Shown here: positions 10,161 to 59,528 of the stretch, piece after piece | How the letters are laid out: each line of letters starts with the position of its first letter | Position numbering within the stretch: the first letter of the stretch is position 1 | NCBI RefSeq assembly: GCF_025766255.1 | Contig: NW_026516681.1 | Coordinates: 124,001-188,000, forward strand | Origin: Zychaea mexicana | Lineage: Eukaryota > Mucoromycota > Mucoromycetes > Mucorales > Lichtheimiaceae | DNA: 64,000 nt | Reading direction: 5' to 3' | Position numbers and translations under genes: made by a program | Notes under the pieces: model-generated | Seen by the model: the letters and a program-made list of their open reading frames with translations, nothing else | Told to the model about the DNA's origin: nothing | Database searches by the model: none

Positions 10161-10172
10161 GAAATGCTGCGG

Positions 10173-10725: not shown

Positions 10726-10879
10726 CAGTGGTCCCCCGCTTTTTGCAGCCCTACTTTTTGCAGATCCTCAATTTTTGCAGATTTTTTTGGAGCATACCCA
10801 CTTATCACTTAGTAAAATTGCAGTTTCCTCACTTTTTGCATTTTGCAGGCCAAAAATGGGGACCTGCAATTTTCCGCTA

Positions 10880-10894
10880 TTAACTCGAGAGCCT
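10880..10894 (+). repeat. 15-bp direct repeat, 3' side of RdRp cDNA (copy 1)
   Basis: TTAACTCGAGAGCCT, identical to 12737-12751. On the RdRp strand it follows the stop codon by about 63 bases and comes just after ACAATAAAAAGTA. It is read as one half of a target-site duplication made by LINE-type retroposition. The same site is at 32929-32943 (copy 2) and 42543-42557 (copy 3), each with one change. Confidence 0.85.
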
Positions 10895-10957
10895 TACTTT
10901 TTATTGTAGGGCAACAGCCCGATGGGTGCAAGGTGCTATTGCTCTATTTACTACAAT

Positions 10958-12730
10958 TTAAAAATATGCTAGGATTTGTGCAATAGACATTTCTTTTAAC
11001 TTTAGTCTTCCTTTCCTCCTCATTCCTATCTTCGACGGCATCATGTCTGTTCCTATTTCTTCTCTTTTGACATTTATCCACTTGATTCCTTCAGTGACAG
11101 TGCTTCCGACATAGTACAGCCTTTTGTGCCTGCCTTGGGAGTAAAAGTCGTAGACGCTTGTGACTTCTCCGAACCCAACTGTTCTCCAGTCGTCGTCATA
11201 CCACCTGTCGTCACCAGCCCACGCTCCATAGTATTGCATTATGTGATCAAGCGTCTTTTGAAAGAGTTTGTCGGCTTTGTCGTCAAATGCATTGTCGATC
11301 ATAGCGCCAACAAGTCTCTTGAGGAAATCGCTTGGTCGCGTATCGGGTTTTTCTGGGAGTAACAGTTGTGTATATGTCTTGGAATATGCTCTGAAGGTGG
11401 GCTCGCCCTCCACATGCCCAAATCTTCTTCCTAGGAACTCGACTCCTTTGTCTTCTTCATCGATCCATCCAACATGATCCGTCTCCCAACTCTTCTCCTT
11501 CGACACCTTGTAGTTAAACGTTTTCTCGAGATATTCTGCTACTTGTCCAATACTTGTTTCTGGTACATCTTTAGGTCCAGTGTACTTCACTACACTATCA
11601 TCACCACTGATGAAGAACTGCATATTTCTTGTCTTATTTTCTTGTTCTTGCTCGCATTCTCCAAATGCCTGTCTGAGCATGACAAAATTGCAGATGCTAT
11701 CAATCAATGATGTGAAAATGCTTCCACTCGGGATTCCACCTTTCTTCTTGTACAAATACCGTTCAGAAAGTATGATGTATGATCTAGCAAACTGGACGTA
11801 ATGCCAGTGCAACCATCTCTCGAGAAATTCATCATCAGGGTCGGCGTATGCATATTTGATTACATCAAAAGCAAAACAGATAACCTTGTCTGGGACATTC
11901 GCGTCAAAAGTGCTCGCATCAAGTATCCAATAGTGCTTTCCACCGGAGAGCCTTTTCTGCATTTCCGATTGCTGTGGACCAAACCATGACTTCCCATAGA
12001 TGATTGGGCCGTCGTGTCTTTTGAGTTTCGCCTGAATCGGCTGGGCAATCGCCCCACCCAGTATGCTCTCGTGCATATCTGGCATCAAAACCAGCCTTGC
12101 CAATTTCCTTTCACCATCCAACTCGTTTCGCAGGTCAACAATTTTGTCTCGCTGTGCTGTTCCCCACAGGATGTCGCCTGGCCACTTTCCGTCCTTTAGT
12201 TCTTGGTACACCCTGGCCGCTTCAACTATGGCACGATCGTAGCCTTGTTGTTTTGTTTGGTATCCTTTTGCTTTATACTGGGGTCCAGGGTTTGCTTTGG
12301 GGTTTGACATGTATGTAAAAGCGAGGTGGTGTTGTTGTGGTATTGGAAGTTTGAATTTTGTGAAGCCTAGTGCGCGAGCTATTGTTTTGGGAGTTTCTCG
12401 TAACCAGAGTGCGTCAGGTGGTTGGACATCAAATTCTTTCAGCTTATGCCACCTGTCCAGGGTATTAAGCATTTTCCTTTCCTGTCAGTGCAGCTCTGGC
12501 TCCTTGATATCTTGTTCAAATACAATGTCCTCGAAATAGGGACTGGGGGTGCTCTTCTTCTTGAAACTTTGGTACATGCTTGGTCCACATTGTTGTTGGT
12601 TGGGTCTGATTGCGTCGTTGACATCTTGAAGGGCTGCTTTGTATGCTTGTCGCGCCGCTTCTGCCCTGCGCTCTGCTTCCACAATTGCTTGTTTTCGCTC
12701 TCTCTTCGCTTGTAACCATGCTTCGTACAT
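10958..12730 (-). pseudogene. Partitivirus-like RNA-dependent RNA polymerase, endogenous copy 1
   Basis: Single-exon frame of 590 codons, broken only by TGA at codon 82 (12487-12485); copies 2 and 3 have Trp there. The C-terminal part (12472-10958) is open for 504 codons. Polymerase motifs are clear: motif A DASTFD (D271 and D276 of the full frame), motif B GGIPSGSIFTSLIDSICN (331-348) and motif C SGDDS with GDD at 376-378. The PSGSxFTxLIDSIxN form is typical of partitivirus/picobirnavirus-like dsRNA viruses, and a 590-codon length suits partitivirus RdRps. Partitiviruses are common in fungi, so a mycoviral origin is likely. Only nine bases separate the ATG from the 15-bp repeat, so the 5' end may be truncated. 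Confidence 0.9.
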
Positions 12731-12736
12731 TTCCCG

Positions 12737-12751
12737 TTAACTCGAGAGCCT
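12737..12751 (+). repeat. 15-bp direct repeat, 5' side of RdRp cDNA (copy 1)
   Basis: The partner of 10880-10894, perfect over 15 bp. It lies just upstream of the RdRp ATG. Equivalent sites are 31072-31086 and 44400-44414, each with one change (CTCGAG to CTCAAG on the RdRp strand). It marks the outer edge of the retroposed insert within the transposon. Confidence 0.85.
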
Positions 12752-12849
12752 GTGACATAGAGTCTTGAACCAGTGACATCTACATGTAATGTTGATAGAT
12801 AGCATCCTTTTACTCGTCAGTAAGCTTTGGGTATTTTGCTTTTACCATA

Positions 12850-13624
12850 TGGTGCAAGCACCTTATAATCCGCAAATTTGTAGGTAATCTTTGAATCCCT
12901 ACTACTTTTTAATGTCACCTTAAAATAAAAAAAGAAGCGGCTACTTATGTTTTTTAGACCTTTAAAAATAATATTTGTGGATTAGATTTGAGTTCTTGCT
13001 TCTTTAAAAAAAGTTATAGGCTTCTGAAGTTGGTCACTTTTGGCGGAGGTATAGCAAATTGAAACATATAGGATTATTCTTAAGCAAGCGGAAATCAAGT
13101 TTAGCCTTATGGGTAAAATATTTAAGCAGTCCAAAGCCACTTACAACTGGCTACTAACTTCGGTTCATTTTTGCTTTGCCTTCTCATGCGTATTCCACAC
13201 AATTTCTCCATTATACCTCGTCCTAAAGATCAAAAGAAAGCTGCTAAAAAGCACAATTGAACAGAAATCGGTAACTTCGTCACTATAATGGAGCAATTGC
13301 AGCTGCATATGAGGAATGTGCGACAACTCCTCTGCTGGCCTTCAGAAACACCTTCCTATTGCTTTAGACTAAGCTTTTCCCCCAATAAGCCCACAAAGAT
13401 TCGTAGATATTACAAAATATGGTTTTATTATATAGAAGGATATAAGTAAAGGGAGAGGATGCCTGGGCAGAAGATGAAGAAGTGAGGATATTCATAACCA
13501 AAATTGCAAGCTCCCATTGGAAAGTAGGCATTGATGATTAAAAACTACCATATATAGAAGCGGAATCTGAAAACTCGAAATTGAAACAAATTTCAAAATT
13601 GTGGATTATAAGGTATGTGCACCA
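12850..13624. mobile_element. 775-bp MITE inserted in RdRp element 1
   Basis: Bounded by TA (12848-12849 and 13625-13626) with imperfect inverted ends TGGTGCAAGCACCTTATAAT and TGGTGCACATACCTTATAAT. The empty site TTTTACCATAGTGGTG is intact in RdRp element copy 3 near 44910-44925. There is no ORF of note. Its TA target suggests mobilisation by a Tc1/mariner-type transposase. Confidence 0.82.
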
Positions 13625-13680
13625 TAGTGGTGTGGAGGTGTCGATAGTACAGTATATAAACATCAAGAATGAGACGACAG

Positions 13681-13691
13681 CCTTTTATATA
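13681..13691 (-). promoter_or_regulatory. TATA-like box upstream of RdRp (copy 1)
   Basis: Reads TATATAAAAGG on the RdRp coding strand and is conserved at 30501-30511 and 44985-44975. It belongs to the transposon rather than the viral insert, lying about 175 bases before the RdRp ATG once the inserted MITEs are discounted. It is a plausible promoter, with no proof of use. Confidence 0.45.
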
Positions 13692-14116
13692 AGAGTTGAT
13701 TTATAATAAGTAGGCTGTTTAATAGTTTATTAATTTTTTAATTATTAATTTATTTTATATATTTAGTTTTTAAGTTTTATTTTTAAATAATAAAGAATGA
13801 TCAACATAATTAGGGGTGGTCAGAGAAAATCTTTGATTTTCGATGACGTGGTTAGCTGGTCATTGAGACGTTAGTCGAAACCCTAGAATAATGGTAGTTA
13901 TTCTAAAAACTTGTCTACAAGTGCCTTATGAACAGTGTTCTAAGTAGCCTCAGTACAACACCAACACTTTTAATTGGTTTACTATCATTGACACTTGATT
14001 AATATAATAGACTCAGTCTGTGTAACATCTCATACTCATCCTCACTTTTTGCAGTTCCCTACTTTTTGCAGTTTTTTCCACCAAAAACCGCTGCTGCAAA
14101 AAGCGGGGGACCACTG

Positions 14117-14157
14117 TACTATATGTTTTGTATCAAAGTTACTTTCTTTTTCCCAAG
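14117..14157 (-). pseudogene. Middle fragment of the D1 chromodomain gene
   Basis: Read on the minus strand this stretch gives ST-WEKESNFDTKHI-V, the second half of a chromodomain. It sits between F1 (right) and RdRp element 1 (left). It continues in frame from 17944 if F1 is removed, and into 33098-33128 if the RdRp elements and the inversion are undone. Confidence 0.8.
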
Positions 14158-14228
14158 TACAGGATTTTTCATCTCCTAGCAGACGTTTGAACTTTTATTT
14201 AGGCAGAAGGGATTTAATTTTAGGCAGA

Positions 14229-14655
14229 GTGGACATGAATGTTAATCTGAGTGGACATGAATGAAAATCGAGCTGGACATGAACGAAAATTGATCTGGAC
14301 ATGAATGAAAATCGAGCTGGACATGAATGAAAATCGAGCTGAACATGAATGAAAATTGAGCTGGACATGAATGAAAATCGAGCTGGACATGAATGAAAAT
14401 CGAGCTGGACATGAATGAAAATCGAGCTGGACATGAATAAAGATCGAGCTGGACATGAATAAAGATCGAGCTGGACATGAGTATAAAACGATCTGGACAT
14501 GAATATAAATCGACCTGGACATGAATATAAATCGATCTGGACATGAGTAAAATCAATCTGGACAAGATAAAAATCAATCTGTACATGAATGAAAATCATT
14601 CTGGACAAGAATAATAATCAATCTAAACATGAATAATAGACAACGTGGACATAAT
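14229..14655. repeat. 22-bp tandem array in F1 left arm (mirrored at about 17445-17872)
   Basis: About 17 imperfect units of CTGGACATGAATGAAAATCG plus two bases, period 22. Because 22 is not divisible by three and the units lack stops, long artificial reading frames of a repeated IHVQLDFHSCPARF type appear in all three frames on one strand; these are not genes. Outer units drift to ATAATAAT-rich versions. The position next to the ends suggests arrayed protein-binding sites. Confidence 0.85.
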
Positions 14656-15568
14656 AACAGTCAACTAAGACATAATAAAAGTTGAAGTAGATAATATATT
14701 AAGTGTTGTAGCAGAGCAGAATATTTGAGTATCTAAGATTTTCAATTCAAGTCAAGACATAATAGATGTTAAGCAGTACAAAGCCAATGTCACGATACAG
14801 TAGTATGGCTGTCTCACTCGTGACAAGAAGCTTGTAGGCTAATGTACAGGAAATGGCAAGGGTGCGTCAGAGACTCACTGTGCGCATAAGCCTATTTTAC
14901 TGCTGTGGGAACAGGGCCTGAGCGTTTCCCCTCATTTCATTTTACCTGGGTTGAGTTTGAAACAAATTGGAGTTTGTTACAGCAGGGAGGAAAAAATCAA
15001 CAACCAAAGATCCTTTTTCTTTCTCATTACCATTCCGCCACGGCAAATCAACAGCTTCGACGCACACTTGTAAATGGCTCCTACTCTCTTCACGATGAAT
15101 AAAAAACAAAGAAAACAAAACGGCACAATCCACGGATTTATTTGATAAACGAAATGAAGGTAATTGTTCTCTTAAAAAAGCATGTGCTCAAGATTTATAA
15201 GGAGTAGACCGCCGTTACTGCTGCTTAAAAAAACGCTGGGTAAGTGAACAAGGGAAGGAAAAGGTTATCGGTTGTGCTTGGGGTATAGCTTTAGTGGACA
15301 TATGTTCATTCAGAATTGCTGCTTCTTTCTCTTTTTCTCTGTATATACGTGATGCACCATCTTGCACCAATCCAACGTCAAACGTACGTGCGTAATACAA
15401 CGTCGTCCTCTACCTGCACAAACGATTCGTACTCACAACAAGAACGACGCAACAATCTTCTTCTCCATTACTCAAACACAATCATATACAACATGACGCT
15501 GATCCGCCATTGACTTGCAAAATATACAGCCTGACGCGAATACTTTTTACCTTTTGCATATACCAACG

Positions 15569-16512
15569 TTAACATCGCCGGTCTTTATAGATAAATGAGC
15601 TGTAGATAGCAGGAAGGATAACTGACGGGTTTCTTTCCTTTTGTGTTGCTGTGGAATTAATTGAAAATAAAGTATGTTGACCGTTATTTAAGAAAGACAA
15701 CGAAGAAGGTTCTACAAGAGTTATACAAGTGCGAAGGATGTTGTTTCGTGGTGAAGGATGGTTATCGTAATTATTGATATTGCGTGGCAGAGCGTCTGGT
15801 GCCATGCACGGTCTCACGTTTGTGAACCCATTTGTAGCCACAAAATTCCGAGATGCGATCCTTGAAGATCTGCCATCGAGCAGCAGGAACGCACACGATT
15901 TCATTAGGAATGAGTGCAAGAACTCCACGTACAGTCGAGTGAGAGAGAGCTTAGCGAATGTCGGCAAGGGTAGTAACTTGTCGGTTGTTCATAGTTGTTG
16001 TTATTAACAACAAATAAAGTTGCTGTTGTAATAGCAAAGAAACTTCCTCCTTCATAACAACAAACATCTTTTCTTCTTTGTCCCTGCCATATTATCAACA
16101 CCGCTCAGAGCTATATCCATGAAGCACTTGTAATAACATGCAATCCTATCTCACACCCGTTCATGCAAACAACTGATACATAATGACTACATAATGTATG
16201 ATCTTTTACTTTTATTTTTTTATCCCAACCATAACATCTACAGTAACAACAATAAAATTCTACATTCCACCCGTCAGCATATATGACTACCTTATCCATC
16301 AAGTCCGGCAATGTTGTGTAGGCATATGCAAAAAGAAAAGGTAATCGTCGTTGCCATCGTGTGTGTGCGAGTACAGCGAATTGCAGAGGAGGATTATAGT
16401 TGTGGTGGTGTGTATGCATCATAGGAATATAATTATCATCGCGTTGATGTGTATACAAACAGCAAAGAAAGTGATGACCGTCATTACGATGATGATGTGC
16501 TTGAGCGTACAA
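15569..16512 (-). other. F1 central region with possible decayed coding sequence
   Basis: The unique centre of the F element is conserved in F2 (about 25100-26150) and F3 (about 49200-50270). On the minus strand one frame around 16000-15780 reads YALSHSTVRGVLALIPNEIV then VPAARWQIFKDRISE, more protein-like than its neighbours. F2 has a stop (TAG) where F1 and F3 read TGG. A second open frame (16512-16111) is Cys/His/Tyr-rich and shifts frame between copies. I do not recognise either. Confidence 0.3.
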
Positions 16513-17943
16513 GTATTAAAACAAAAGACCGGCGTCATAGTCGTCATCGTGTAATATGGGCGTACATGATAGTGAAAGGTGAATACGTCAGGCTGTATAT
16601 TTTGCAAGTCAATGGCGGATCAGCGTCATGTTGTATATGATTGTGTTTGAGTAATGGAGAAGAAGATTGTTGCGTCGTTCTTGTTGTGAGTACGAATCGT
16701 TTGTGCAGGTAGAGGACGATGTTGTATTACGCACGTACGTTTGACGTTGGATTGGTGCAAGATGGTGCATCATGTATATACAGAGAAAAAGAGAAAGAAG
16801 CAGCAATTCTGAATGAACATATGTCCACTAAAGCTATACCCCAAGCACAACCGATAACCTTTTCCTTCCCTTGTTCACTTACCCAGCGTTTTTTTAAGCA
16901 GCAGTAACGGCGGTCTACTCCTTATAAATCTTGAGCACATGCTTTTTTTAAGAGAACAATTACCTTCATTTCGTTTATCAAATAAATCCGTGGATTGTGC
17001 CGTTTTGTTTTCTTTGTTTTTTATTCATCGTGAAGAGAGTAGGAGCCATTTACAAGTGTGCGTCGAAGCTGTTGATTTGCCGTGGCGGAATGGTAATGAG
17101 AAAGAAAAAGGATCTTTGGTTGTTGATTTTTTCCTCCCTGCTGTAACAAACTCCAATTTGTTTCAAACTCAACCCAGGTAAAATGAAATGAGGGGAAACG
17201 CTCAGGCCCTGTTCCCACAGCAGTAAAATAGGCTTATGCGCACAGTGAGTCTCTGACGCACCCTTGCCATTTCTTGTACATTAGCCTACAAGCTTCTTGT
17301 CACGAGTGAGACAGCCATACTACTGTATCGTGACATTGGCTTTGTACTGCTTAACATCTATTATGTCTTGACTTGAATTGAAAATCTTAGATACTCAAAT
17401 ATTCTGCTCTGCTACAACACTTAATATATTATCTACTTCAACTTTTATTATGTCTTAGTTGACTGTTATTATGTCCACGTTGTCTATTATTCATGTTTAG
17501 ATTGATTATTATTCTTGTCCAGAATGATTTTCATTCATGTACAGATTGATTTTTATCTTGTCCAGATTGATTTTACTCATGTCCAGATCGATTTATATTC
17601 ATGTCCAGGTCGATTTATATTCATGTCCAGATCGTTTTATACTCATGTCCAGCTCGATCTTTATTCATGTCCAGCTCGATCTTTATTCATGTCCAGCTCG
17701 ATTTTCATTCATGTCCAGCTCGATTTTCATTCATGTCTAGATCGATTTTCATTCATGTCCAGCTCAATTTTCATTCATGTTCAGCTCGATTTTCATTCAT
17801 GTCCAGATCAATTTTCATTTATGTCCAGCTCGATTTTCATTCATGTCCACTCAGATTAACATTCATGTCTACTCTGCCTAAAATTAAATCCCTTCTGCCT
17901 AAATAAAATTTCAAACGTCCGCTAGGAGATGAAAAATCCTGTA

Positions 17944-18185
17944 CTATCGTCATTGCTATAACCAGCCCATTTTACCTAAAAAATATATTTGCCTTGATTA
18001 TCTAACGTATGGTCTAATATTTTTTCTACTTCATATGATTTTTTTTCCTTTGATTTTTCATTGTGTTTATTTCTTCTTCTTTTTTTACCTGGTTCAGGTA
18101 TTTCATTCTCTGATATTATATCGTCATCAACATCATTTAGTATTTCTATATCTTCTATATTAAGATTCATTATTCTCTCTTGCAT
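17944..18185 (-). pseudogene. D1 chromodomain protein, N-terminal part
   Basis: From the ATG at 18185 an acidic then Lys/Arg-rich leader (PGKKRRRNKHNEKSKEKK) leads into SYEVEKILDHTLDNQGKYIF, the opening of a chromodomain. One extra G near 17978 shifts the frame, after which VKWAGYSNDDST follows in the next frame before F1 interrupts it. It lies 41 bases downstream of the D1 DDE transposase frame on the same strand, as in D2. In transposons chromodomains can direct integration to marked chromatin; that role here is inference. Confidence 0.82.
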
Positions 18186-18226
18186 ATCTATTATTTATTA
18201 TATTCCTGATTAAATGTTTGAGAATT

Positions 18227-19349
18227 TTAAAAAATATAATTAAGTATAGTTAATTTTGTAGGAAATTCAAAATTATTATTATACCATAACATATGATGTG
18301 GTAATGCTTCTATTTTGTAATCATCTACCATTTTCCATATATTCTTTATTAAACAAGCTACTCTAAATTGTAAATTATAGTATTTTATATCAGTTATTTG
18401 AACAGCAGATCTATTGTTATTAAACCTATCAAATTTACTAGCTAAAACTGAGAAATGATTTTCAATACCTGAACGAAATGAACCAAATTTTTTATTGTAA
18501 TCAAGTTCTATAACAGTTCTTTTTACATTTTGCTCTTTTCTTATTGGGTATACAAAATTTCTTTTATCAAATTTATTATTAGAATTATATTCATCAGTAT
18601 TGTCAATAAAGTTATGTATAAATAAATCATACCTACTATCAAAACCAATACAATCAGCTTCCGATATTTTATCTTTAAATAACTTCATATTCAAAAACAT
18701 AGTACCATCATTACCAATAGCGCATTTTTCACTATCTGATACATATGTAATCATATTATTCATATCAGACATAACTCCTGAACCTTTTAATTTATATGAG
18801 TACATAGTTTTTGTAGATTCACTTGGATTATAGTATTTAATTTTACTATCATGGCCATCAAGAAATAGTGTTACATTTTTAAAACCATCAGGATTATTTA
18901 CTTTTGCTGCCAATATCCTTATTTTTATATTTGAAAATAATTCATTTAAATCTTTTTTTAGAATTTTATTTAAATCAGCATAATTAGTAATCCAAATTTT
19001 TTTATATAAATCGTAAAAAGTTATGTATGGTATAAATTCGCGCATATTCTTACCAGGATTACCAGATACAATATGGTATAATAAAATTAAACCTTTTTCA
19101 ATTTCTCTATATAGACTATGATATTCTTTATTTCCATATAAAATCACTAAGAAATAAAATACAGGTATATAACCTAATTGTTTTAAAAGTATATCTTTTA
19201 TAGTTTCTATTTTATCGTCTTTGGTATCTTTAATTTCTGTCCTATGGTTAAATCTATTATGAATGTATGGCCATTCCATATTTAAAAATGTCCATTTATT
19301 TCCAATAAGTTTATAAACTTCTGAGTTTAATTGGCTGGTAAGATTATTA
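18227..19349 (-). pseudogene. D1 DDE transposase (DDE_Tnp_4/Harbinger-like), start separated by an IS630-type insertion
   Basis: Frame of about 374 residues aligned along its length to the D2 protein at 57668-56595. Likely catalytic features are LFLDGHDSK (first Asp), IGFDSRYDLF (second Asp) and FGSFRSGIENHFSVLASKFD (Glu plus a conserved Arg-rich helix), the pattern of DDE_Tnp_4/PIF-Harbinger-type transposases, though distant. Codon use is very AT-rich. A 2.6-kb element inserted at a TA after the third codon moved the ATG to 21966-21964; deleting it joins M-D-T to N-N-L-T-S-Q in frame. The family call is from motif pattern only. Confidence 0.65.
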
Positions 19350-21956
19350 TGGTGTATTTCATCTATAACCGCCAATGTTTCAATTTTGAAATTTCAAATG
19401 CCGCTTCTTTATTTGGTAATATTCAAATAATAGTAGGGAAATCGTCACGACGGTGTGAGCTGTAAGTTCGGGAAGTATATCTTTCCACAAGAGTGATAGC
19501 TTCGGGAGTTGGTAGTTCTTGGGAATAAGCGTCTATAAAACGCCACACCCTTCCATAAACTCGTCTAATTAGTGTAGGTACTTCGTCTGGGGGCGAAACA
19601 GTATCCAGGAACTTTGGTAAGTTTTCTTTCAAAGCTTTAAAACTGTAATCACAATTGATTCGTACATGGTACTTTGCTTGGCCCCAATATCGTTCGATCC
19701 AATTGCACTCGCAATGGAATTTTGGATATAGCTCAAAAATGTGACCCGCGTTCTCCACAGCTTCACAAAGGGCTGTCTTTTGATCTCGAAAGTCAGGCTG
19801 AGCACCAAGAAAATGTCTAGCACAACACTTGCTATCGTCCGCTTCTTCTTTTTTGCAATCCATTCGCCAAACTTTTCCAGGTCTATACGGGTCTTCCTCA
19901 AACCAAAGTCCACGCTCATTCAAAATGATTTTTATCCCCTTGAAATGGCATACTTGCTGTTTGTCGGCCGTGACTATCGTGACACCTCGCTTGCATTTCT
20001 TAATGTTTTCTTCGATATTCATGTACATCCTTTGTGTTTTCTTTTCTTTGGTTGCTTCATCGATAAAGTAGCTGTCCTGATACACGTGCATGCTGCAGTC
20101 ATGCTCTGCGTTATCCACTCCACACCGCTTTGGATCCTTGCACATAGTTCTCGCCAGTAATGCATCACTTGGGTAAGCGTTATGATTACTACTTTGATCG
20201 AATATAAATAATGCTTGACAACCAGGGTGCAAAAGGTCAAATAGTGGGATCGCATCTTCTTCTAACTGCTTAACCATGTCTTTGCTGGTCCAATACTGTT
20301 CTCAGTTAGCCCCTGCATAGAAGTATGTACGCGAGGTCCATATTCCAGATCGCATTGTGCCATGACACGCGCATTGGAACTCGGATATCATAATGGATTG
20401 TCCAGGGCTTTTGTTGTGTAGGATACTCTCGCCGTCTGCCAGCCATAGCTTTTGTTTACCGTCGTTTGCATAGAAGGTTGACTCATCATAGGTAACCATA
20501 ACAAGTTTCTTTTGATCAGGCGCTAAAGATGGCTCAATGATGATTTCTGCACGTTGTCCTTCGTACGAGTCCATCCGCTTCTTGTACTCCACCATTCGTT
20601 TAGCCCATTTTAATCGGTATGCTACCACGTCATCTCGTTCGTGCCCGTCGTAATATATATCCTTGCTGTTTTTGCGGTATCGATAACCCCACTCAGACAT
20701 ATATCGCCATAATGTCGTCTGTGATACTGAGCCTGGAACACCAAGTATCTCAGGGATGATACTTTTATTGATAACTTTAACAAAAGCAGGGAGGTTACGC
20801 AGCTCGAATTTCTGACTGCCTATCAATAGACGGATTCGTTCTTCCACGGACTCGTTACTGAGGAGTGATTCTCTTTTTACATGCTTCCCTTGTTGATGTG
20901 TTGAGATGGACCCAGAATCACGGAATTCGCGCGCCCAGTAGCGGATGGCCTTTGCCCTATACTCTTTTGATGGGGTGGTCCAGATATCGACAGCAGCTCT
21001 TTGAGAACTATCAATACTTTTCAATCCCTGTGACTGATAGTGATAGTACCGGTATACAGCTTGTGTTTTTGCCATTTGAAAAGCACCCATAGTATTGAGC
21101 GTGCTTCCTTTGTTCGCTACCGGCTTTATAAGTGCTTTTAAAGATGCTAAAAGCTGTGAGAGTTGCTCCTCACCATCAATATTGGCGACGCTGTGGTTTT
21201 TGTGGAGAGCTTTAGAAGAGTTCTCTGAATGTATACACGGCGTTTGCGTCACCTTCGTGAAATAATCATCGACCTTTTTGCAACCTTCTGCAGCAGCTCT
21301 TGCTTCTGTTCGTCTTCGCCAGTTGGTCGTACGGGAGTCTTTATTATATACTACACGCATGGATTTATCTGCATCGTCTTTCCAAGCCAGCGATAGTTTT
21401 GCAGCCTGTTGTAATATATTGTGCGTCAGGTCAACGAGTTCCCAATCGTTGATATTATCGTCGTCGTTGTTGTCACTTAGTTCAGATCCTGCATCGACAT
21501 ATGTAATAGTCGCTGGACTTTCCGAAGCTATGAATCTTCCATATTCATCCTGTTGTTTTCTCTTTGCGTTCTCTCTAGCGCTCTTCTGGCGCTTCCTAAG
21601 TGGTGGCATCTGGTAGAAGGAACAGGGTGTAGCCACATCTCAGCTCTTGCGAATAATAGTGTAAGGCATTAGATACTAACCAAATTAGGAAATTTCACGT
21701 GAGTATTATTTACCCGAATATGCATGAGTGCGTTTCAATTTTACCCTTCGCCTGCAAAATTTTCCTAAACCGGCAGACTTTGACGACTATCCTCTCCTTC
21801 CCAAAACATTTTTTTAAGAAGTTAGCCAAATAGAAATAGACTAAAGATGCTTAAGAAACAATTGATTTGGTTGCTTTTGTGGTAAACTTGTTTTTGGGGG
21901 TGCTGATAGCTTTCAATTTTGGGGAACATTTTGGCGGTTATAGATGAAATACACTA
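19350..21956 (-). mobile_element. IS630/Tc1-type transposon inserted in D1
   Basis: A 2607-bp element with inverted ends TRGTGTATTTCATCTATAAC followed by CGCCAA, flanked by TA (19348-19349 and 21957-21958). It contains one transposase gene in two in-frame halves. It is the youngest layer at this spot, because it splits the D1 transposase frame. Confidence 0.85.
19423..21609 (-). pseudogene. IS630/Tc1-superfamily (DDE_3-like) transposase with a single in-frame TGA
   Basis: ATG at 21609 starts a Lys/Arg-rich leader; the frame runs about 728 codons to 19423 with one TGA at 20304-20302. An HTH-like region (about 20950-20650) precedes the catalytic core: VTYDESTFYANDG (first Asp), LFIFDQSSNHNAYPSDAL (second Asp) and CNWIERYWGQAK (Glu), then a YTSRTYSSHRR C-terminus common in fungal relatives. 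The stop sits in YAGAN-stop-EQYW, where CGA (Arg) is expected, so one C-to-T change explains it. Readthrough is possible but nonsense decay is simpler. Confidence 0.85.
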
Positions 21957-22409
21957 TAGTATCCATTATATTAATAATAGTAATAGTAGAAGTAGTAGAA
22001 GTAGTAGCAGTGGTAGCAGTGGTAGCAGTGATAAAATATATATTAAGGTTGCCGCGTTTAAGACAAAAGGTTATCCTTAATAAGAAAAGAAGAATGTGTA
22101 AATTATGTAAGTAATCAAGTATAAGCAATTACTTATTATATTAAAAACAAGTTGAATTTTTTGATAAAAAGTAATTGAGTTTCGAAAATAAAACAATAGT
22201 AAAATGATTTGTCATCAATAAAAAGCAATTGGTAATGTATATCCCCCTTTTTTAAAAAATTCAAAATAAAAAATCTATACTCTCCCCTACTGAGAAAGGC
22301 AATAAACCATTTCATCAATATTTTTCATAATTTCTTCTTTACTTTTTGATTTATACATCTCTATTATTGTAATAATTGTTTTATAGCATAAGCTAGATAA
22401 AAGCTGCCA
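21957..22409. other. D1 upstream spacer with trinucleotide repeats
   Basis: Contains the displaced first codons of the D1 transposase (21966-21957, minus strand), then a microsatellite rich in TAG/AGTAG/GCAGTGG (about 21970-22032). AT-rich sequence without a gene follows. Confidence 0.6.
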
Positions 22410-22883
22410 CTATTGCAGATATACACTTTTTTGATTTTTTTGGATTTTTTTTATACCTTTTTTAAGAATACCATTGTTATTAACAATTATACATGGTAAT
22501 TCTGGATTTTCAATTTTGTTTGTAGGTTTTTTGTTGCGTTTTTTAGGTGTATAAAGTTTACTATGTTTAATACAAAGAAAATCTGGCTTATTATCACCTA
22601 TATTTGTATTAATCTTCCTATGACACATATGACCTTCTTTTTTACCTCTTCTATGAATAGAAGTACATATATTAGGTGAAGAGTTAAGATACCAAAAGTT
22701 TTTATCTTTGACTTCATTAATTTTTTCTTTAATTATATTCTCTATCAATTTCTTTTTTTCATCTTCTTTTTTAAGTAATATCTCATCTTCAAAATAATTT
22801 TTCATAACTTGTAACATTAATTCTTTAATAGAATTAATCATATTATATTTATCAATAAGTATTTCTGTATTCAAGATAACCAT
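22410..22883 (-). CDS. D1 small Cys/His-motif protein
   Basis: 157 residues, no family name known to me. The N-terminal half is charged and helical, probably coiled coil. The core is C-x3-H-x9-C-x16-C-x2-H (ICTSIHRRGKKEGHMCHRKI, then FLCIKH), a likely zinc knuckle. The C-terminus is Lys-rich. The protein at 55560-56099 has the same core and opening (MVIL-TEIL). Similar G-rich Cys/His knuckles occur in proteins of large DNA viruses, a resemblance from memory of the pattern rather than a search. The frame is intact, and the conserved link to the D transposase suggests an accessory role. Confidence 0.65.
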   Translation of the reverse strand: MVILNTEILIDKYNMINSIKELMLQVMKNYFEDEILLKKEDEKKKLIENIIKEKINEVKDKNFWYLNSSPNICTSIHRRGKKEGHMCHRKINTNIGDNKPDFLCIKHSKLYTPKKRNKKPTNKIENPELPCIIVNNNGILKKGIKKIQKNQKSVYLQ

Positions 22884-23051
22884 TTTTATTTTATGAAAAT
22901 TCGGGTAAGATATAATGTGTTTATTTTTATAATAAGAAAAAATTCAATTTTTAATAAAAAAGTATGCACGTCAAAAATGTTTGTGTAACATTTAAATCAT
23001 TTCGACCAAAATTGGCCATACCGATAGTAAATTATTTATAGATATAAAAGG

Positions 23052-23595
23052 TTATAGTCCGTAACCGATCAGTCCTCTTGGCGCCATCTTTGGCAAACTT
23101 GCCAGCATGTCTTTGAGCGTTCTTGGAAGCTTTAGTCTCCCTTCAATGGTAGCTTCTGTGTTGTGTTGGTCGTCGGAGCATGTCTCTTCCAGACAGCCAT
23201 ACTCATGAGCCCCATTAATGAAGATGAGGTCAACCTTTGTTCCTACTAGCTTTCTGTCTAGTAGACCCTCATCATCTATCCTCCATGCTTCATTCTTTCT
23301 TACTGAGGAGCTAGAACTGGCCTTTTCACTAGTACATACCAAAGTGATTGGTAAGTTAGGGTGATATAAATCATTAGATATCATGCCGTCGTATAGATTC
23401 AAATACCTTTGCACTTGGAGCTTTGACTCAGAGCTTTGACTCATAGAAGCACGACTGGATAAATCCCTATTTCTGGTGAGTCAGATCAGCTTCGGTGTCA
23501 TCATTGGCTGGCAGAATATCATACAAGAACTAGTCCAAGATATTGATGATGGATATTTGAGGCCAGTACAAATAGGCTTGTTCGATGGGGTGGCG
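23052..23595 (-). pseudogene. Repeated gene Y, 5' part (unit U1), truncated by M1 and by D1
   Basis: Minus strand. Matches gene Y at 53154-53660 closely: YLNLYDGMISNDLYHPNLPI, ...GLLDRKLVGTKVDLIFINGA, ...EGRLKLPRTLKDMLASLPKM. A 13-bp tandem duplication (GAGCTTTGACTCA type, about 23420-23445) and stops break it. The right end is cut by M1 at 23596 and the 3' part is missing at 23052, where D1 begins; the missing part is at 33206-33784. The style (a KVDLIF block with an LPRTLKDML block) recalls a multicopy Mucoromycota gene family of unknown function. Confidence 0.6.
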
Positions 23596-23743
23596 GTAAT
23601 GGGTTTAACACAAAACAGTTAGTTATATATCCTCCTTTAGAAGGAAAGAAAACAAACATACTTCTTACCTTCTACATAGGATCTTATTCAGACATACCTT
23701 TTTAAGGTGGATTCTATAAGTATCATTATTTAATGAGAAACTA

Positions 23744-26700
23744 CAGGATTTTTCATCTCCTAGTGGATGTTTGAACTTTTATTTAGGCAGAAGGGATTTA
23801 ATTTTAGGCAGAGTGGACATGAATGTTAATCTGAGTAGACATGAATAAAAGTTAATCTGGACATGAATGAAAATCAAGCTGGACATGAATGAAAATCGAG
23901 CTGGACATGAATGAAAATCGATCTAGACATGAATGAAAATCGAGCTGGACATGAATATAAATTGACCTGTACATGAATGAAAATCGAGCTGGACATGAAT
24001 AAAGATCGATCTGGACATGGATATAAAACGATCTGGACATGAATATAAATCGATCTGGACATGAGTAAAATCAATCTGGACAAAATAAAAATCAATCTGT
24101 ACATGAATGAAAATCGTTCTGGACAAGAATAATAATCAATGTAAACATGAATAATAGACAACCTGAACATAATAACAGTCAAACTGGACATTGTTTTAGT
24201 CAACTAAGACATAATAAAAGTTGAAGTAGATAATATATTAAGTGTAGCAGAGCAGAATATTTGAGTACTTAAGATTTTCAATTCAAGTCAAGACATAATA
24301 GAAGTTAAGCAGTACAAAGCCAATGTCAAGATATAGTAGTATGGCTGGTTCACTCGTGACAAAAAGCTTGTAGGCTAATGTACAGGAAATGGCAAGGGTG
24401 CGTCAGAGACTCACTACTGTGCGCATAAGCCTATTTTGCTGCTGTGGGAACAGGGCCTGAGCGTTTCCCCTCCATTCATTTTACCCGGGTTGAGTTTAAC
24501 ACAAACTGGAGGCTGGTGGCTGAGGTAGGTGGAAAGTGTGGGGTTTGTTAGCAGCAGCAGGGAGGAAAAAAAAACAACCAAAGATCCTTTTTTTTCTCAT
24601 TACCATTTGCCACGGCAAATCAACAGCTTCGACGCACACTTGTAAATGACTCCTACTCTCTTCACGATGAATAAAAACAAAGAAAACAAAACGGCACAAA
24701 CCACGGATTTATTGAAAAACGAAATGAAGGTAACTGTTTTCTTAAAAAGAGCATGTGCTCAAGATTGATAAGGAGTAGACCGCCGTTACTGCTTAAAAAA
24801 ACGCTGGGTAAGTGAACAAGGGAAGGAAAAGGTTACTGGTTGTGCTTGGGGTATAGCTTTAGTAGACATACGCTCATTCAGAATTACTGTTTTTTTCTTC
24901 TCTGTATATACTTGATGCACCATCTTACACCATTCCAACGTCAGACTTGCGTGCGTAATACAACATCGTGCTCTACCTGCACAAACGATTCGTACTCACA
25001 ACAAGAACGACGCAACAATCTTCTTCTCCAATACTCATACACAATCATATACAACATGGCGCTGATCCGCCATTGACTTGCAAAACATACAGCCTGACGC
25101 GATTATTTTTTTCCTTTTGTATATAACAATGTTAACATCGCCGGTCTTTATGGATAAATGAGCTGTAGATAGCAAGAAGGATAACTGACGGGTTTCTTTC
25201 CGTTTGTGTTGATGTGGATTGGATGAAAATAAAGTATGATGGCCGAGATATAAGAAAGACAAAAAAGAAGGTTCTATAAGAGTTATACAAGTGCGAAGGA
25301 TGTTGTTTCGTGGTGAAGGATGGTTATTGTAATTATTGATATTGCGTGGCAGAGCGTCTGGTGCCATGCACAGTCTCGCGTTTGTGAACCTATTTGTAGC
25401 CACACAATTCCGAGATGCGATCCTTGAGGATCTGCCATCGAGCAGCAGGAACGCACACGATTTCATTAGGAAAGAGTGCAAGAACTCCACGTACAGTCGA
25501 GTGAGAGAGAGCGTAGCGAATGACGTCAAGGGTACTAACTTGTCGGTTGTTCATAGTTGTTGTTATTAACAACAAATAAAGTTGCTGTTGTAATAGCAAA
25601 GAAACTTCCTCCTTCATAACAACAAACACCTTTTCTTCTTTGTCCCTGCCATATTATCATCACCACTCAGAGCTATATCTATAGTTTTTATAGAAGCACT
25701 TGTAATAATATGCAATCCCATCTAACACCCGTTTATGCAGACAACTGAAACATAATGACTACATAATGTATGATCTTTTACTTTTATTTTTTTCATCCCA
25801 ACCATAACATCTACAGTAACAATAATAAAACCCTACATACCACCCATCAGCATATATAACTACCTTATCTATCAAGACCGGCAATGTTCGTGTTGGCATA
25901 TGCAAAAAGAAAAAGGTAATCGTTATTGCCATCGTGTGTGCGAGTACAGCGAATTGCAGAGGAGGATTATAGTTGTGGTGGTGTGTATGCATCATAGGAA
26001 TATAATTATCATCGCATTGATGTGAATACAAACAGCAAAGAAAGAGATGACCGTCATTACGATGATGATGTGCTTGAGCGTACAAGTATTAAAACAAAAG
26101 ACCGGCGTCATAGTCGTCATCGTGTAATATGGGCGTACATGATAGTGAAAGGTAATCGCGTCAGGCTGTATATTTGCAAATCAATGGCAGATCAGTGTGA
26201 TGTTGTATATGATAGTGTATGAGTAATAGAGAAGAAGATTGTTGCGTCGTTCTTGTTGTGAGTACGAATCGTTTGTGCAGGTAGAGGACGATGTTGTATT
26301 ACGCAAGCAAGTCTGACGTTGGAATGGTGCAAGATGGTGCATCAAGTATATACAGAGAAGAAAAAAATACAGTAATTCTGAATGAGCGTATGTCTACTAA
26401 AGCTATACCCCAAGCACAACCAGTAACCTTTTCCTTCCCTTGTTCACTTACCCAGCGTTTTTTTAAGCAGTAACGGCGGTCTACTCCTTATCAATCGTGA
26501 GCACATGCTCTTTTTAAGAAAACAGTTACCTTCATTTCGTTTTTCAATAAATCCGTGGTTTGTGCCGTTTTGTTTTCTTTGTTTTTATTCATCGTGAAGA
26601 GAGTAGGAGTCATTTACAAGTGTGCGTCGAAGCTGTTGATTTGCCGTGGCAAATGGTAATGAGAAAAAAAAGGATCTTTGGTTGTTTTTTTTCCTCCCTG

Positions 26701-27547
26701 CTGCTGCTAACAAACCCCACACTTTCCACCTACCTCAGCCACCAGCCTCCAGTTTGTGTTAAACTCAACCCGGGTAAAATGAATGGAGGGGAAACGCTCA
26801 GGCCCTGTTCCCACAGCAGCAAAATAGGCTTATGCGCACAGTAGTGAGTCTCTGACGCACCCTTGCCATTTCCTGTACATTAGCCTACAAGCTTTTTGTC
26901 ACGAGTGAACCAGCCATACTACTATATCTTGACATTGGCTTTGTACTGCTTAACTTCTATTATGTCTTGACTTGAATTGAAAATCTTAAGTACTCAAATA
27001 TTCTGCTCTGCTACACTTAATATATTATCTACTTCAACTTTTATTATGTCTTAGTTGACTAAAACAATGTCCAGTTTGACTGTTATTATGTTCAGGTTGT
27101 CTATTATTCATGTTTACATTGATTATTATTCTTGTCCAGAACGATTTTCATTCATGTACAGATTGATTTTTATTTTGTCTAGATTGATTTTACTCTTGTC
27201 CAGATCGATTTATATTCATGTCCAGGTCGATTTATATTCATGTCCAGGTCAATTTATATTCATGTCCAGATCGTTTTATATTCATGTCCAGATCGATCTT
27301 TATTCATGTCCAGGTCATGTCCAGCTCGATTTTCATTCATGTCTAGATCGATTTTCATTCATGTCCAGCTCGATTTTCATTCATGTCCAGCTTGATTTTC
27401 ATTCATGTCCAGATCAATTATTATTCATGTCTAGATTAACTTTTATTCATGTCCACTTAGATTAACATTCATGTCTACTCTGCCTAAAATTAAATCCCTT
27501 CTGCCTAAATAAAAGTTTAAACGTCCGCTAGGAGATGAAAGATCCTG
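23744..27547. mobile_element. F element copy 2
   Basis: A 3804-bp foldback element with the same CAGGATTTTTCATCTCCTAG ends, flanked by TA (23742-23743 and 27548-27549). The 22-bp arrays are at about 23815-24190 and 27070-27475. Arms are mirror images with small indels. It sits at the same M junction (TAAGTAATTAGATAGC) as F3 in M2. Confidence 0.87.
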
Positions 27548-27699
27548 TAAGTAATTAGATAGCATCTAATTTTTAGTAATGATTTATTTAGTTTCAAGAT
27601 TAATTATCTCTTCTTACAGTAGCGCCACAAGAAGGCATAAATCAAGGTACTAGGGGAGAATTTTATAAAATAATAATAATAAATATTGGTATCATAGGA

Positions 27700-28899
27700 G
27701 ATTATTTATTATTATTATAAAAATAATAATAATAATCTTTTATATGAATCATCAACCCAGAATGATTCGTTTAAATAATAGCAAATAACAAAAATTCCAA
27801 TATGTCATAATAACATAGTTATTAATAATACAAAATTATTCCAATCTCTTAATGAAATAATAAGGCAAACTAATTTATGTAATACAGGTCTATTCTTAAT
27901 AAACTCTTGTTCTTCAATTTTAATTAGTTTACTTAACATAACTATAATTAAAAAGAAACAACCAAGAATTCCAATAAATGTAAATAGACAAACACATAAA
28001 ATTAAAATAGGAGTAGGATTTCTATTACTACCTCTAAAATATTCATTTAATAAATTAAATATATCTTGTGGATTTTCAATGAATTTTGAAATTAATTCTA
28101 CAAAATTATTACTATTTTCATTTAGAGAATTAATTTTGAAGTTTCCATCTAGTGGAGGACTACCAGATCTTTCAATAGAGTGATAATACATTCTTTCACA
28201 CATTTCTCTCATTTTTTTTCTTTCTTCAAAGTTATAATTCATCATTTCACCTAATCCATAAGTAGCAAAACCACCAATAGTGCCAACAACACCTAAGAAC
28301 AATCCATTTCTAGGATTTGTTTTTGCAATTTTAACTGCAGCAGTTATTATTGTTCCAGAAATAACTCCCGCAGCAACTCCAGGAGAAGTAATTAGTCTAT
28401 CATTATTAGAATTACTATCTGATGGATGATTATTTGACCCTGCACCTCCATCTCCAAAATTAACATTAAAAGTATTTCTTGATGAAGGATTTGTATTAGA
28501 TGAATTAGGGGCAGAACTTATATAAATTAATAAACCTAGTAATACTAAACCTAAAGAGCCTATAAAAATGTTAGAAAGATTATCATTTAAGAAGTGAATA
28601 AATTCTATAAAATAAAGATGAATAGAATCAACTAGATTATTAGGAATTAAAAATACAGATGCAAATCTAAAATGATTTTTATCTGTAGAATAGTAATACT
28701 TATGTTTAATAAACTTAATAATGGATAGAATATTATTCTGTAATAAAGAATAATAAGTTTGTAATAATCTATTACATCCATAAATAAGTATTTTAAACCA
28801 ATAACTAGAAATAACCCAAACTAAGTTTAAAGTTAATTGTAGGATACAAAGGGGGAATAGGGCGATCGCTAAGATTTTAAAAGACATTTTTGTAAACAT
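27700..28899 (-). pseudogene. M1 multi-pass membrane protein, one premature stop
   Basis: From ATG 28899 the frame is open for 364 codons to TGA at 27807-27805, where other copies have TGT (Cys). The homologous tail would extend to about 27700, giving about 398 residues. About six hydrophobic segments are visible: near residues 8-30, one ending LLIYISS, VAAGVISGTIITAAV, GLFLGVVGTIGGFATYGLG, ILILCVCLFTFIGILGCFFL, and the C-terminal LLITMLL region. A Ser/Asn-rich loop (SSAPNSSNTNPSS) lies between. I do not recognise the family. The AT-rich, hydrophobic, inverted-repeat setting recalls mitochondrial linear plasmids, but that is a guess. It is the only gene of the M element. Confidence 0.6.
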
Positions 28900-29280
28900 T
28901 TTCTTTTAATAAATTAATAAAATTAGATAGCATTAATTAAATAACACTATTTTTTTAAAAAATAAAGACATTTAGTTTCTCATTGAATAATGATACTTAT
29001 AGAATCCACCTAAAAAAGGTATGTCTGAATAAGATCCTATCTAGAAGGAAAGAAGTATGTTTATTTTCTTTCCTTCTAAAGGAGGATATGTAAATAACTG
29101 TTTTATGTTAAACCCATTACCCTTGCGAAAGAGGATATGTAAATAACTGTTTCAAGTTAAACCTATTACCCCCCTCGAAATGGTGTACTTTTTGGTGGGC
29201 CAAAAGGGCAGGCATGTTTTTCTATGTAATGAAACGCTTTAGCTCTTACTGTCCCTTTTACACAAGCACACAAATGGGGT

Positions 29281-29696
29281 TTAGCACAATCGTTTTACCT
29301 TTCCAGCATATAACATCAAGTATTGCTCAAAGGCAGGCAGCAATGGTGGTAGTTTGGAGGCTTTGTAGTTGGTGATTTCAGCAAGTTGATCCGGAGAGAA
29401 GTAAGAAAGCCAAACGGCCTCTTTGGGATCGATTATGAGTGAGTGGACGGAGCTAAAACAGTATGAGAATGCTGGTAAAGTATGTTGGTTACTGACCTCC
29501 ACCCTTATCTTTATTTGTCAACTAATATGGACGTACTGATGATGTATATATTTAAGGGCCAATTGCTGCATTTGGTCTTCGACTGCCACTCTTTCTTCAC
29601 CTTCTGCTCTAGCGAGCAGCCACCACTTTTGATTTGCTGCTAGCCGTTTGTATATCATTTTTACCCATAGGCGGTTGCTGGGGGTTAGAGTTGATA
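29281..29696 (-). pseudogene. Repeated gene X, 3' exons (unit U1, now inverted)
   Basis: Exon 29696-29537 reads NRLWVKMIYKRLAANQKWWL and AEGEERVAVEDQMQQLALKY. After a GT-AG intron, exon 29452-29281 reads IDPKEAVWLSYFSPDQLAEI and ends KVKRLC-stop. It is cut at 29697 by a MITE and then RdRp element 2. It is the continuation of 10173-10725 before the inversion. No known domain. Confidence 0.6.
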
Positions 29697-30049
29697 TCGG
29701 GGATTAATCCTTAATCGTAATTCTTTAAAAGGTTTTATTAATTAAAGAAATATCATTGTTTAAAGATATATATAAAAAAATAAAAAATTAGATTATAAAT
29801 TTTTTATTTTTGAAACTAATAACTTTTTTTTAAACTTTTTTTTTTTGGTTTAGGTTTTGTATAAACCTTTTTAAACCTTTGAAAGAGTTATATCCTTTAA
29901 TAATTACTTTAAAATAGGCTAGGAGGTACGACGACGCCCAGTTCATTTAAAAATCAATGAAGTTAGATTTTTATTTGAACACTTGATAGAGTAATACAAT
30001 GACATAATTAATTTACTGTTACAGTAAAATTAATTGTTATTGATTACTC
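29697..30049. mobile_element. MITE of the tRNA-like family, short form, next to RdRp element 2
   Basis: About 353 bp, ends GGGATTAATCC and (inverse) GAGTAATCAATAAC, the same family as 30617-31020. Its matching copy is 45437-45796. The target duplication is not clean here. In U3 the X sequence runs through this point without it (58955-58975). Confidence 0.7.
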
Positions 30050-30500
30050 TTCACACAGTGGTCCCCCGCTTTTTGCAGCAGCGGTTTTTGGTGGAAAAAA
30101 CTGCAAAAAGTGGGGAACTGCAAAAAGTGAGGATGAGTATGAGATGTTACACAGACTGAGTCTATTATGTTAATCAAGTGTCAATGATAGTAAACCAATT
30201 AAAAGTGTTGGTGTTGTACTGAGGCTACTTAAAACACTGTTCATAAGGCACGAACACTGTTCATAAGGCACTTGTAGACAAGTTTTTAGAATAACTACCA
30301 TTATTCTAGGGTTTCGACTAACGTCTCAATGACCAGCTAACCACGTCATCGAAAATCAAAGATTTTCTCTGACCACCCCTAATTATATTGATCATTCTTT
30401 ATTATTTAAAAATAAAACTTAAAAACTAAATATATAAAATAAATTAATAATTAAAAAATTAATAAACTATTAAACAGCCTACTTATTATAAATCAACTCT

Positions 30501-30511
30501 TATATAAAAGG
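30501..30511 (+). promoter_or_regulatory. TATA-like box upstream of RdRp (copy 2)
   Basis: TATATAAAAGG on the RdRp strand, identical in all three copies. It is 582 bases before the ATG here only because of the 404-bp MITE. Confidence 0.45.
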
Positions 30512-30616
30512 CTGTCGTCTCATTCTTGATGTTTATATACTGTACTATCGACACCTCCACACCACTATGGTAAAAGCAAAATACCTAAAGCTTACTGACG
30601 AGCAAAAGGATGCTAT

Positions 30617-31020
30617 GAGGTTCAATCCATAACAATTAATTTTACTGTAAACAGTAAATTAATTTTAGTTATTCCTTTCCCTGTCAAGCGTTCTAGTAAA
30701 TTAAAATTTCATTTTAATTTATCTGAACTGGGGCGTCGTCGTACCTCCTAGCCTAGAAGGAGGGGGTGCTCACTACCGTTCCGCTACTTTTCAAATTAAA
30801 TATTAAACCTTAAAGGATATAACTCTTTTAAAGGTTTAAAAAGGTTTATGCGAAACATAAACATTTTAAAGAATTAAAAAAAAAAGTTAAAAAAAAAGAT
30901 AAAAGTTTTAAAAATAAAAAAATTAAAATCTAATTTTTTATTTTTCCTAAACATGTTTAAACAATGATTTATCTTTAAACAATAAAACCTTTTAAGGAAT
31001 TACAATTAAGGATTAAACCC
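30617..31020. mobile_element. 404-bp MITE with tRNA-like boxes, in RdRp element 2
   Basis: Flanked by CTAT (30613-30616 and 31021-31024). Ends GAGGTTCAATCC and GGGTTTAATCC are imperfect inverted repeats. On the minus strand it contains TAGCGGAACGGTAGTGAGC (like a pol III A box and D arm) and, about 33 bases on, GGTACGACGAC (8 of 11 matches to a B box). The empty site is in RdRp element 1 at about 12785-12835. Confidence 0.82.
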
Positions 31021-31092
31021 CTATCTATCAACATTACATGTAAATGTCACTGGTTCAAGACTCTATGTCCCAGGCTCTCAAGTTAACGGGAA

Positions 31093-32865: not shown

Positions 32866-33097
32866 ATTGTAGTAAATAGAGCAATAGCACCTTGCACCCA
32901 TCGGGCTGTTGCCCTACAATAAAAAGTAAGGCTCTCGAGTTGATAGCGGAAAATTGCAGGTCCCCATTTTTGGCCTGCAAAATGCAAAAAGTGAGGAAAC
33001 TGCAATTTTACTAAGTGATAAGTGGGTATGCTCCAAAAAAATCTGCAAAAATTGAGGATCTGCAAAAAGTAGGGCTGCAAAAAGCAGGGGACCACTG

Positions 33098-42003: not shown

Positions 42004-42015
42004 GAAATGCTGCGG

Positions 42016-42388: not shown

Positions 42389-42620
42389 CAGTGGTCCCCT
42401 GCTTTTTGCAGCCCTACTTTTTGCAGATCCTCAATTTTTGCAGATTTTTTTGGAGCATACCCACTTATCACTTAGTAAAATTGCAGTTTCCTCACTTTTT
42501 GCATTTTACAGGCCAAAAATGGGGACCTGCAATTTTCCGCTATCAACTCGAGAGCCTTACTTTTTATTGTAGGGCAACAGCCCGATGGGTGCAAGGTGCT
42601 ATTGCTCTATTTACTACAAT

Positions 42621-44393: not shown

Positions 44394-44465
44394 TTCCCGT
44401 TAACTTGAGAGCCTGGGACATAGAGTCTTGAACCAGTGACATCTACATGTAATGTTGATAGATAG

Positions 44466-44869: not shown

Positions 44870-44974
44870 ATAGCATCCTTTTGCTCGTCAGTAAGCTTTG
44901 GGTATTTTGCTTTTACCATAGTGGTGTGGAGGTGTCGATAGTACAGTATATAAACATCAAGAATGAGACGACAG

Positions 44975-44985
44975 CCTTTTATATA
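44975..44985 (-). promoter_or_regulatory. TATA-like box upstream of RdRp (copy 3)
   Basis: TATATAAAAGG on the RdRp strand, as in the other copies. Confidence 0.45.
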
Positions 44986-59516: not shown

Positions 59517-59528
59517 CCACAGCATTTC

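Follow-up and report, generated by a model that had tools for sequence, protein, structure and literature searches.

A 64,000-nucleotide stretch of the genome of the mucoralean fungus Zychaea mexicana (family Lichtheimiaceae; contig NW_026516681.1, positions 124,001 to 188,000, or G000:C90:124001-188000 in a genome of 50.3 Mb; this whole stretch is called the window below) holds three copies of an element bounded by terminal inverted repeats (TIRs), each of which carries an insert derived from a viral RNA-dependent RNA polymerase (RdRp) gene. The viral sequence was inserted into the TIR element and duplicated 15 bp of it. The best explanation of the whole, and quite a probable one, is that of a fossil RNA-virus polymerase gene lodged inside a short non-autonomous pogo-like DNA transposon. 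It is also fairly likely that the transposon moved this polymerase as cargo after its capture by a long interspersed nuclear element (LINE), in a genome that has captured the viral lineage repeatedly by means of different retroelements.

The outer boundaries of copy 1 (Table 1) are TIRs with 24 identical bases at each end, opening with CAGTGGTCCCC... at the first base of the element and closing with the complement at its last, with TA outside both ends; within them, two TTAACTCGAGAGCCT repeats matching at 15/15 positions bracket the RdRp insert. Both the TA-flanked TIRs and the perfect duplication had been claimed in the original prediction, and both were confirmed at the positions tabulated. 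Copies 2 and 3, said there to have the same nested arrangement, indeed share the layout of copy 1 and the 1842-nt length of its insert, but their 15-bp repeats have drifted by one base each (TCAACTCGAGAGCCT and TTAACTTGAGAGCCT), and TA lies directly outside them at the left end only, with an AT-rich insertion at the right ends. The ~780-bp repeat nested in copy 1 has near-complete copies, 96–98% alike, at eight further genomic places.

Table 1. Features of the window; positions count from its first base.
Feature	Position	Strand	Remarks
Copy 1, RdRp-bearing TIR element	10726..14116	+	TA at 10724-10725 and 14117-14118; left flank site B, right flank site A
Left copy of 15-bp target duplication, copy 1	10880..10894	+	TTAACTCGAGAGCCT
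Viral complementary DNA (cDNA) insert of copy 1	10895..12736	-	1842 nt; 63-nt trailer with AATAAA; frame interrupted
504-aa open stretch with RdRP_1 domain	10958..12472	-	PF00680
Right copy of 15-bp target duplication, copy 1	12737..12751	+	TTAACTCGAGAGCCT
Nested ~780-bp repeat	12846..13626	+	among the loaded copies, in copy 1 only
Segment putatively inverted between copies 1 and 2	14117..30055		reciprocally swapped flanks
Copy 2, RdRp-bearing element, inverted	30056..33097	-	left flank site A, right flank site B
AT-rich insertion in copy 2	30624..31032	none	shared with copy 3 (0 differences in 409)
RdRp insert of copy 2	31087..32928	+	1842 nt; frame interrupted
Copy 3, RdRp-bearing element	42389..45430	+	both flanks site B
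RdRp insert of copy 3	42558..44399	-	1842 nt; frame interrupted
AT-rich insertion in copy 3	44454..44862	none	shared with copy 2
Element-free counterpart of site B	58964..58965	none	copy 3 flanks joined, ..CTTCTATATCAAC.. on minus strand

The order of events can be read from relatives of the element that lack the RdRp. A genome search with the left end yielded 104 candidates, 40 of which were scored, three being the RdRp copies and 37 RdRp-free. From 43 loci that were cut out, 42 contained the left end, and eight of these had no right end within the stretch, five of them coming from three RdRp-free places and the other three being the RdRp copies. Once loci cut twice had been dropped, 20 whole RdRp-free elements of 505–524 bp formed the comparison set. 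All 20 have exactly one 15-bp site at the same place of the alignment (13 exact, seven with one mismatch), and two copies of the site occur in 0/20. Elements of precisely this kind, with a single uninterrupted site, had been proposed as the check on the insertion order, which is thereby borne out: since RdRp-free relatives hold an uninterrupted single site at the insertion point, it was the viral cDNA that entered the element. A scan of the genome with the site and its neighborhood, allowing up to three mismatches, found 23 places as against none for a backwards control pattern; these comprise the right junction of copy 1, 19 of the 20 elements, and three more RdRp-free places (on C66, C162 and C265). 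The full-length relative described below has a single diverged site, TTGACTCAGGAGCCT, with three mismatches. Three of the 20 elements (on C15, C187 and C196) are probably duplicates of one insertion, since they have one right flank in common. The RdRp-free relative on C162 (L061 around 281-1502) contains a 1.2-kb AT-rich insertion at the exact base of RdRp entry, and this encodes a 174-aa stretch that is by eye similar to the open reading frames (ORFs) of the window at 22410-22883 and 55560-56099.

The carrier family consists of ~523-bp TA-flanked TIR elements with many RdRp-free copies; TA stands directly at the left end in 19/20 and at the right end in 20/20 of the RdRp-free elements, the twentieth left end being altered. 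A full-length relative of 2329 bp (L087, contig C263) has the same 24-base TIR at both ends as copy 1 and shares its left 169 bp with the carrier at 94%. Its transposase frame is split, and the domains, read from the pieces, are HTH_Tnp_Tc5 (44.9 bits, cut-off 22.2) and DDE_1 (73.3 bits, cut-off 22), a combination typical of the pogo/Tigger family. Across the genome DDE_1 was matched 68 times, and in 14 control genomes not at all; eight of the 40 scored left-end places have a match 930–968 bp further in. Since L087 has the same ends, the same left part and transposase domains, the 523-bp elements are internal-deletion relatives of a pogo/Tigger-like transposon and non-autonomous, in confirmation of the type to which they had first been assigned.

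The 504-aa minus-strand ORF of copy 1 matches Pfam RdRP_1 at 103.7 bits (cut-off 23.9); the polymerase motifs DASTFD, GGIPSGS and GDD are present in the RdRP_1-type stretch, and in copy 1 the trailer with AATAAA, as predicted, occupies the 63 nt after the ORF. Genome-wide, RdRP_1 rises above the cut-off at the three window copies only, with two weak matches below it (C273 and C190); the profile found matches in 1/14 control genomes, and RdRP_1 also takes in other virus families. The closest protein outside the genome, a Joint Genome Institute (JGI) protein, is 35–36% identical over the polymerase core, other protein matches lie at 23–32% (27% for Hubei partiti-like virus 20), and a PDB search gave two weak viral polymerase matches. 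A repeat protein search with an alignment of four proteins returned the same four and nothing further; with the same alignment, a scan of IMG/VR gave 178 pattern stretches, of which 0 were confirmed. The predicted structure of the 504-aa stretch had a mean predicted local distance difference test score (pLDDT) of 37 and was left unused. The virus belongs to a partiti-like lineage, and none of these searches turned up a close relative; the description "partitivirus-like" given in the original prediction holds at the level of the polymerase domain (RdRP_1 and the motifs), with membership in Partitiviridae as a candidate placement. A stop within a matched region interrupts the RdRp frame of each of the three copies, so the cargo appears to be a passenger without evidence of function. 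Pairwise, the inserts differ at 19 to 30 of 1842 positions, mostly by transitions (17/19, 18/21 and 25/30); in a site-by-site comparison of the whole elements, C-to-T or G-to-A changes relative to the other two copies make up 6/6 of the differences peculiar to copy 2 and 11/18 of those peculiar to copy 3.

A related fragment on C190 (a different copy, 92% over 156 bp) has an open frame continuing ~330 nt further upstream, on which account the window insert is judged to be 5'-truncated, starting inside the viral ORF; at its other end it stops 63 nt past the ORF in ..CAATAAAAAGTA. The LINE-type endonuclease domain PF14529 was found at 48 genomic places, 35 of them above the cut-off alone and two more together with their neighbors, and several of the matches lie within frames of more than 1000 aa; in the control, it had matches in 3/14 bacterial and archaeal genomes and exceeded the cut-off in one. 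LINE-made chimeras in fungi have been described as having 10–20 bp duplications and frequent 5' truncation (PMC2104539). Entry by LINE retroposition is well supported by the duplicated 15 bp, by the truncated 5' end and by the LINE-type endonucleases of the genome, and to that extent the LINE machinery originally invoked is upheld, though no poly(A) tail is seen. On contig C168 (G000:C168 435057-458092), LINE-type endonuclease domains recur every ~5.5–5.8 kb, as in a tandem array.

Related viral fragments occur elsewhere in the genome. The amino-terminal part of the RdRp has seven matches (three in the window, one each on C38 and C190, and two pieces on C44), and the carboxy-terminal part matches at the three window copies only. 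On C38 (L051 1507-1879), 373 bp of a related RdRp, at 91%, lies between stretches that recur RdRp-free at five and three other places; domains for RNase H and integrase zinc binding lie on one side of the fragment, and its two joins show overlaps of 11 and 7 bp, such as template switching would leave. Since C122 and C36 have the two flanking stretches on opposite strands, the C38 arrangement is itself rearranged, rather than an insertion into one continuous relative. The C38 fragment is part of the public hypothetical protein BDB00DRAFT_878340. On C190 (L053 about 793-1345 and 2023-2093), the 5' part of a related viral ORF adjoins a retroelement integrase core in the opposite sense; a diverged pogo-like right end stands ~750 nt beyond the fragment, with 6 of 24 mismatches (shuffles gave 9 or more), and no matching left end was found in the 2775 bases examined, the contig starting there. 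On C44 (L052 132-1539), a relative of the viral ORF at 43–45% amino acid identity lies between two ~60-bp direct repeats that are 82% alike. No flanking 15-bp repeat was found around the viral fragments on these three contigs, nor any 24-bp TIR better than shuffles at the C38 and C44 loci. Their divergence from the window copies and their different embedding make the fragments look like separate captures, and it would seem that this genome acquired related viral RNAs by two or more different routes. RdRp copies without the TIRs, named beforehand as an observation that would count against the prediction, are thus found in a weak form, as related fragments on three other contigs, of which the one on C190 may have a TIR carrier.

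The flanks of the three copies place the loaded, i.e., RdRp-bearing, elements at two target sites, called A and B; as to the latter, copy 1 holds its left half, copy 2 its right half, and copy 3 both halves. Element-free counterparts of site A exist at L035 (C54) and L036 (C33), which are 94% like the left flank of copy 2 over 120–121 bp and continue into the right flank of copy 1 for 44 bp with one and two mismatches; that of site B lies in the window, and the counterparts of both sites have TA at the junction. A search with the right flank of copy 1, in which 40 of 166 candidates were scored, found among those only the neighboring 22-bp-repeat element. Three related ~3.8-kb elements (14156-17945, 23739-27549 and 47848-51624) have long inverted arms with 22-bp tandem-repeat arrays. 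The left side of site B is formed by three copies of an element like Mutator-like elements (MULEs) at 7204-10725, 39035-42388 and 58964-62462, with the MULE domain below the cut-off and a SWIM zinc finger above it.

Because copies 1 and 2 are oppositely oriented with reciprocally swapped flanks, the segment between them (about 14117-30055; Table 1) would have been inverted. A single segmental duplication giving rise to all three copies was ruled out by the two target sites and the swapped halves of copies 1 and 2. A crossover in the middle of the element was also considered; since alleles peculiar to copy 1 are met with from element position 12 almost as far as the right end, the exchange would have to lie within the leftmost ~155 bp or have been overwritten by conversion. 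The number of captures can be addressed through variants in the carrier sequence. At alignment columns 27 and 176, a C>T change is present in 3/3 loaded copies and in 0/20 RdRp-free elements, and at columns 75, 78 and 290 the state of the loaded copies is also seen in 2, 1 and 1 of the 20, so that the shared private or rare variants lie to either side of the insert, spanning columns 27–290 of the 523. Since private variants common to the loaded copies lie on both sides, there was likely one founding capture and one founding loaded element. The left flanks of copies 1 and 3 differ at 7 of 1400 positions near the element and at 110 of 3335 overall; sequence has been exchanged within this cluster. 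The "spread" by a transposon that was first proposed is to be taken in a restricted sense: the three copies lie within 35 kb, at two target sites, and owe their existence in part to local duplication or gene conversion.

In the favored account, a LINE enzyme would have carried out target-primed retroposition of a partiti-like viral (+)RNA into a TIR element, yielding a copy short at its 5' end, and this single capture would have founded all loaded elements. A transposase acting in trans on the TIRs would then have moved the loaded element locally to a second TA site, after which duplication, inversion between oppositely oriented copies and gene conversion would have produced the present three copies. 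That the loaded element transposed is likely, though short of proof: local transposition is the simplest account, with gene conversion as a real rival. Several points weigh against this account. As regards the entry, the insert has no poly(A) tail at its end, which reads AATAAAAAGTA; the probable first nick, AGCCT/GGGAC, lacks T-richness and so does not point to an enzyme of the L1 type; no host LINE is tied to the event, the LINEs of this genome being predicted from endonuclease domains; and the 15-bp site was looked at in 23 of the 37 RdRp-free left-end matches. As regards the later movement, the counterparts without an element are 3–6% diverged repeats related to the two sites within this one genome, and not orthologous loci; the private variants are C>T, the commonest change here, for which chance recurrence is not nil; and there are only three loaded copies, all in one cluster. 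On the missing tail, interrupted poly(A) tails are described as typical of partitiviral mRNA in PMC3136472.

Gene conversion offers the strongest, if still unlikely, departure from this account: there would have been one retroposition, and the second target site would have been loaded by ectopic conversion between TIR elements instead of by transposition, the RdRp having thereby been copied into an RdRp-free element already resident there. Between copies 2 and 3, the insert differs at 19 of 1842 positions and the right flank of site B at 40 of 1142, a closeness of insert relative to flank that is a sign of gene conversion; similarly, the inner AT-rich insertion is identical (0 of 409) where the outer one differs (14 of 359), and the loaded copies lie close together with their flanks exchanged. 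Against this stand the variants shared over columns 27–290 and the uniformity of the bodies from TIR to TIR, and conversion would still require two neighboring family members to have arrived by another route, which local hopping would supply directly.

An improbable alternative concerns the entry itself, and holds that the viral cDNA was made without a LINE, by the viral polymerase or a long terminal repeat (LTR) retrotransposon enzyme, and joined during repair. The absence of a poly(A) tail and of a T-rich nick site would suit such a route, as would the related C38 fragment: it is joined to retrotransposon stretches with short overlaps, so that LTR-type enzymes probably did copy such RNA in this genome. 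LTR integrases, however, leave a target duplication of 4–6 bp, and plain break repair as a rule leaves none. Reverse-transcriptase activity has been suggested for a partitivirus RdRP (PMC12027680), but it would not explain the 15-bp duplication, and a flush duplication of this length with 5' truncation is the mark of LINEs in fungi (PMC2104539).

RNA interference exists in Mucorales, and the insert might be conceived of as a selected host component, e.g., a source of antiviral small RNA with the inverted copies pairing. Copies 1/2 and 2/3 are mutually inverted, and related viral fragments lie on three other contigs, which speaks for such a role; all three frames are nevertheless broken, and the differences are mostly transitions, which leaves this reading very improbable. 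That the element instead inserted into, or was assembled around, an already integrated viral gene, with the 15-bp repeat unrelated, has a negligible probability and was rejected, for in spite of the related viral fragments elsewhere the uninterrupted site is at the same place in 20/20 RdRp-free relatives.

A combination of DNA transposon and virus is also found in Teratorn, the virus of which is reportedly a herpesvirus. Teratorn is a piggyBac-like transposon fused to a virus into a 180-kb composite with a large DNA virus (PMC10175614), whereas here an RNA-virus gene was reverse-transcribed and became passive cargo. The plant Pack-TYPE transposons likewise are non-autonomous DNA transposons with foreign coding DNA, theirs being drawn from the host genome (PMC8903248) and that of the present elements from a viral RNA retroposed into them. 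With pogo/Tigger-type non-autonomous elements there is agreement in the TA target, the TIRs and the transposase domains of a full-length relative, the difference being the inserted viral polymerase gene that is carried here. The endogenous partitivirus elements treated in PMC3136472 and PMC12027680 parallel the present case as DNA copies of a partiti-type gene in a cellular genome; those have transposable elements near or inside the copies, whereas here the copy sits at a defined point in a TIR element, with many RdRp-free relatives and the duplication made on entry preserved. Finally, the LINE-made chimeric retrogenes of Magnaporthe grisea share with the insert a fungal reverse transcript, 10–20 bp direct repeats and 5' truncation, (PMC2104539); the present case differs in its viral template and in the absence of both a joined LINE tail and a poly(A) stretch. 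From titles and the starts of abstracts, with subscription literature mostly outside the scope, no described RNA-virus gene in a TIR DNA transposon was recognized, nor any such case for Zychaea.

The mechanism by which RNA-virus genes integrate is stated as having remained unknown in PMC3136472, and such genes, once integrated, often show no clear trace of how they came in. Here, the entry mark, RdRp-free carriers, a full-length relative with transposase domains and element-free sites survive together, and because they all do, the order of events becomes readable and testable. They suggest a concrete route by which an RNA-virus gene may turn into a mobile unit of a nuclear genome and, if this is true, RNA-virus genes would have joined the pool of genes mobilized by cut-and-paste transposition.

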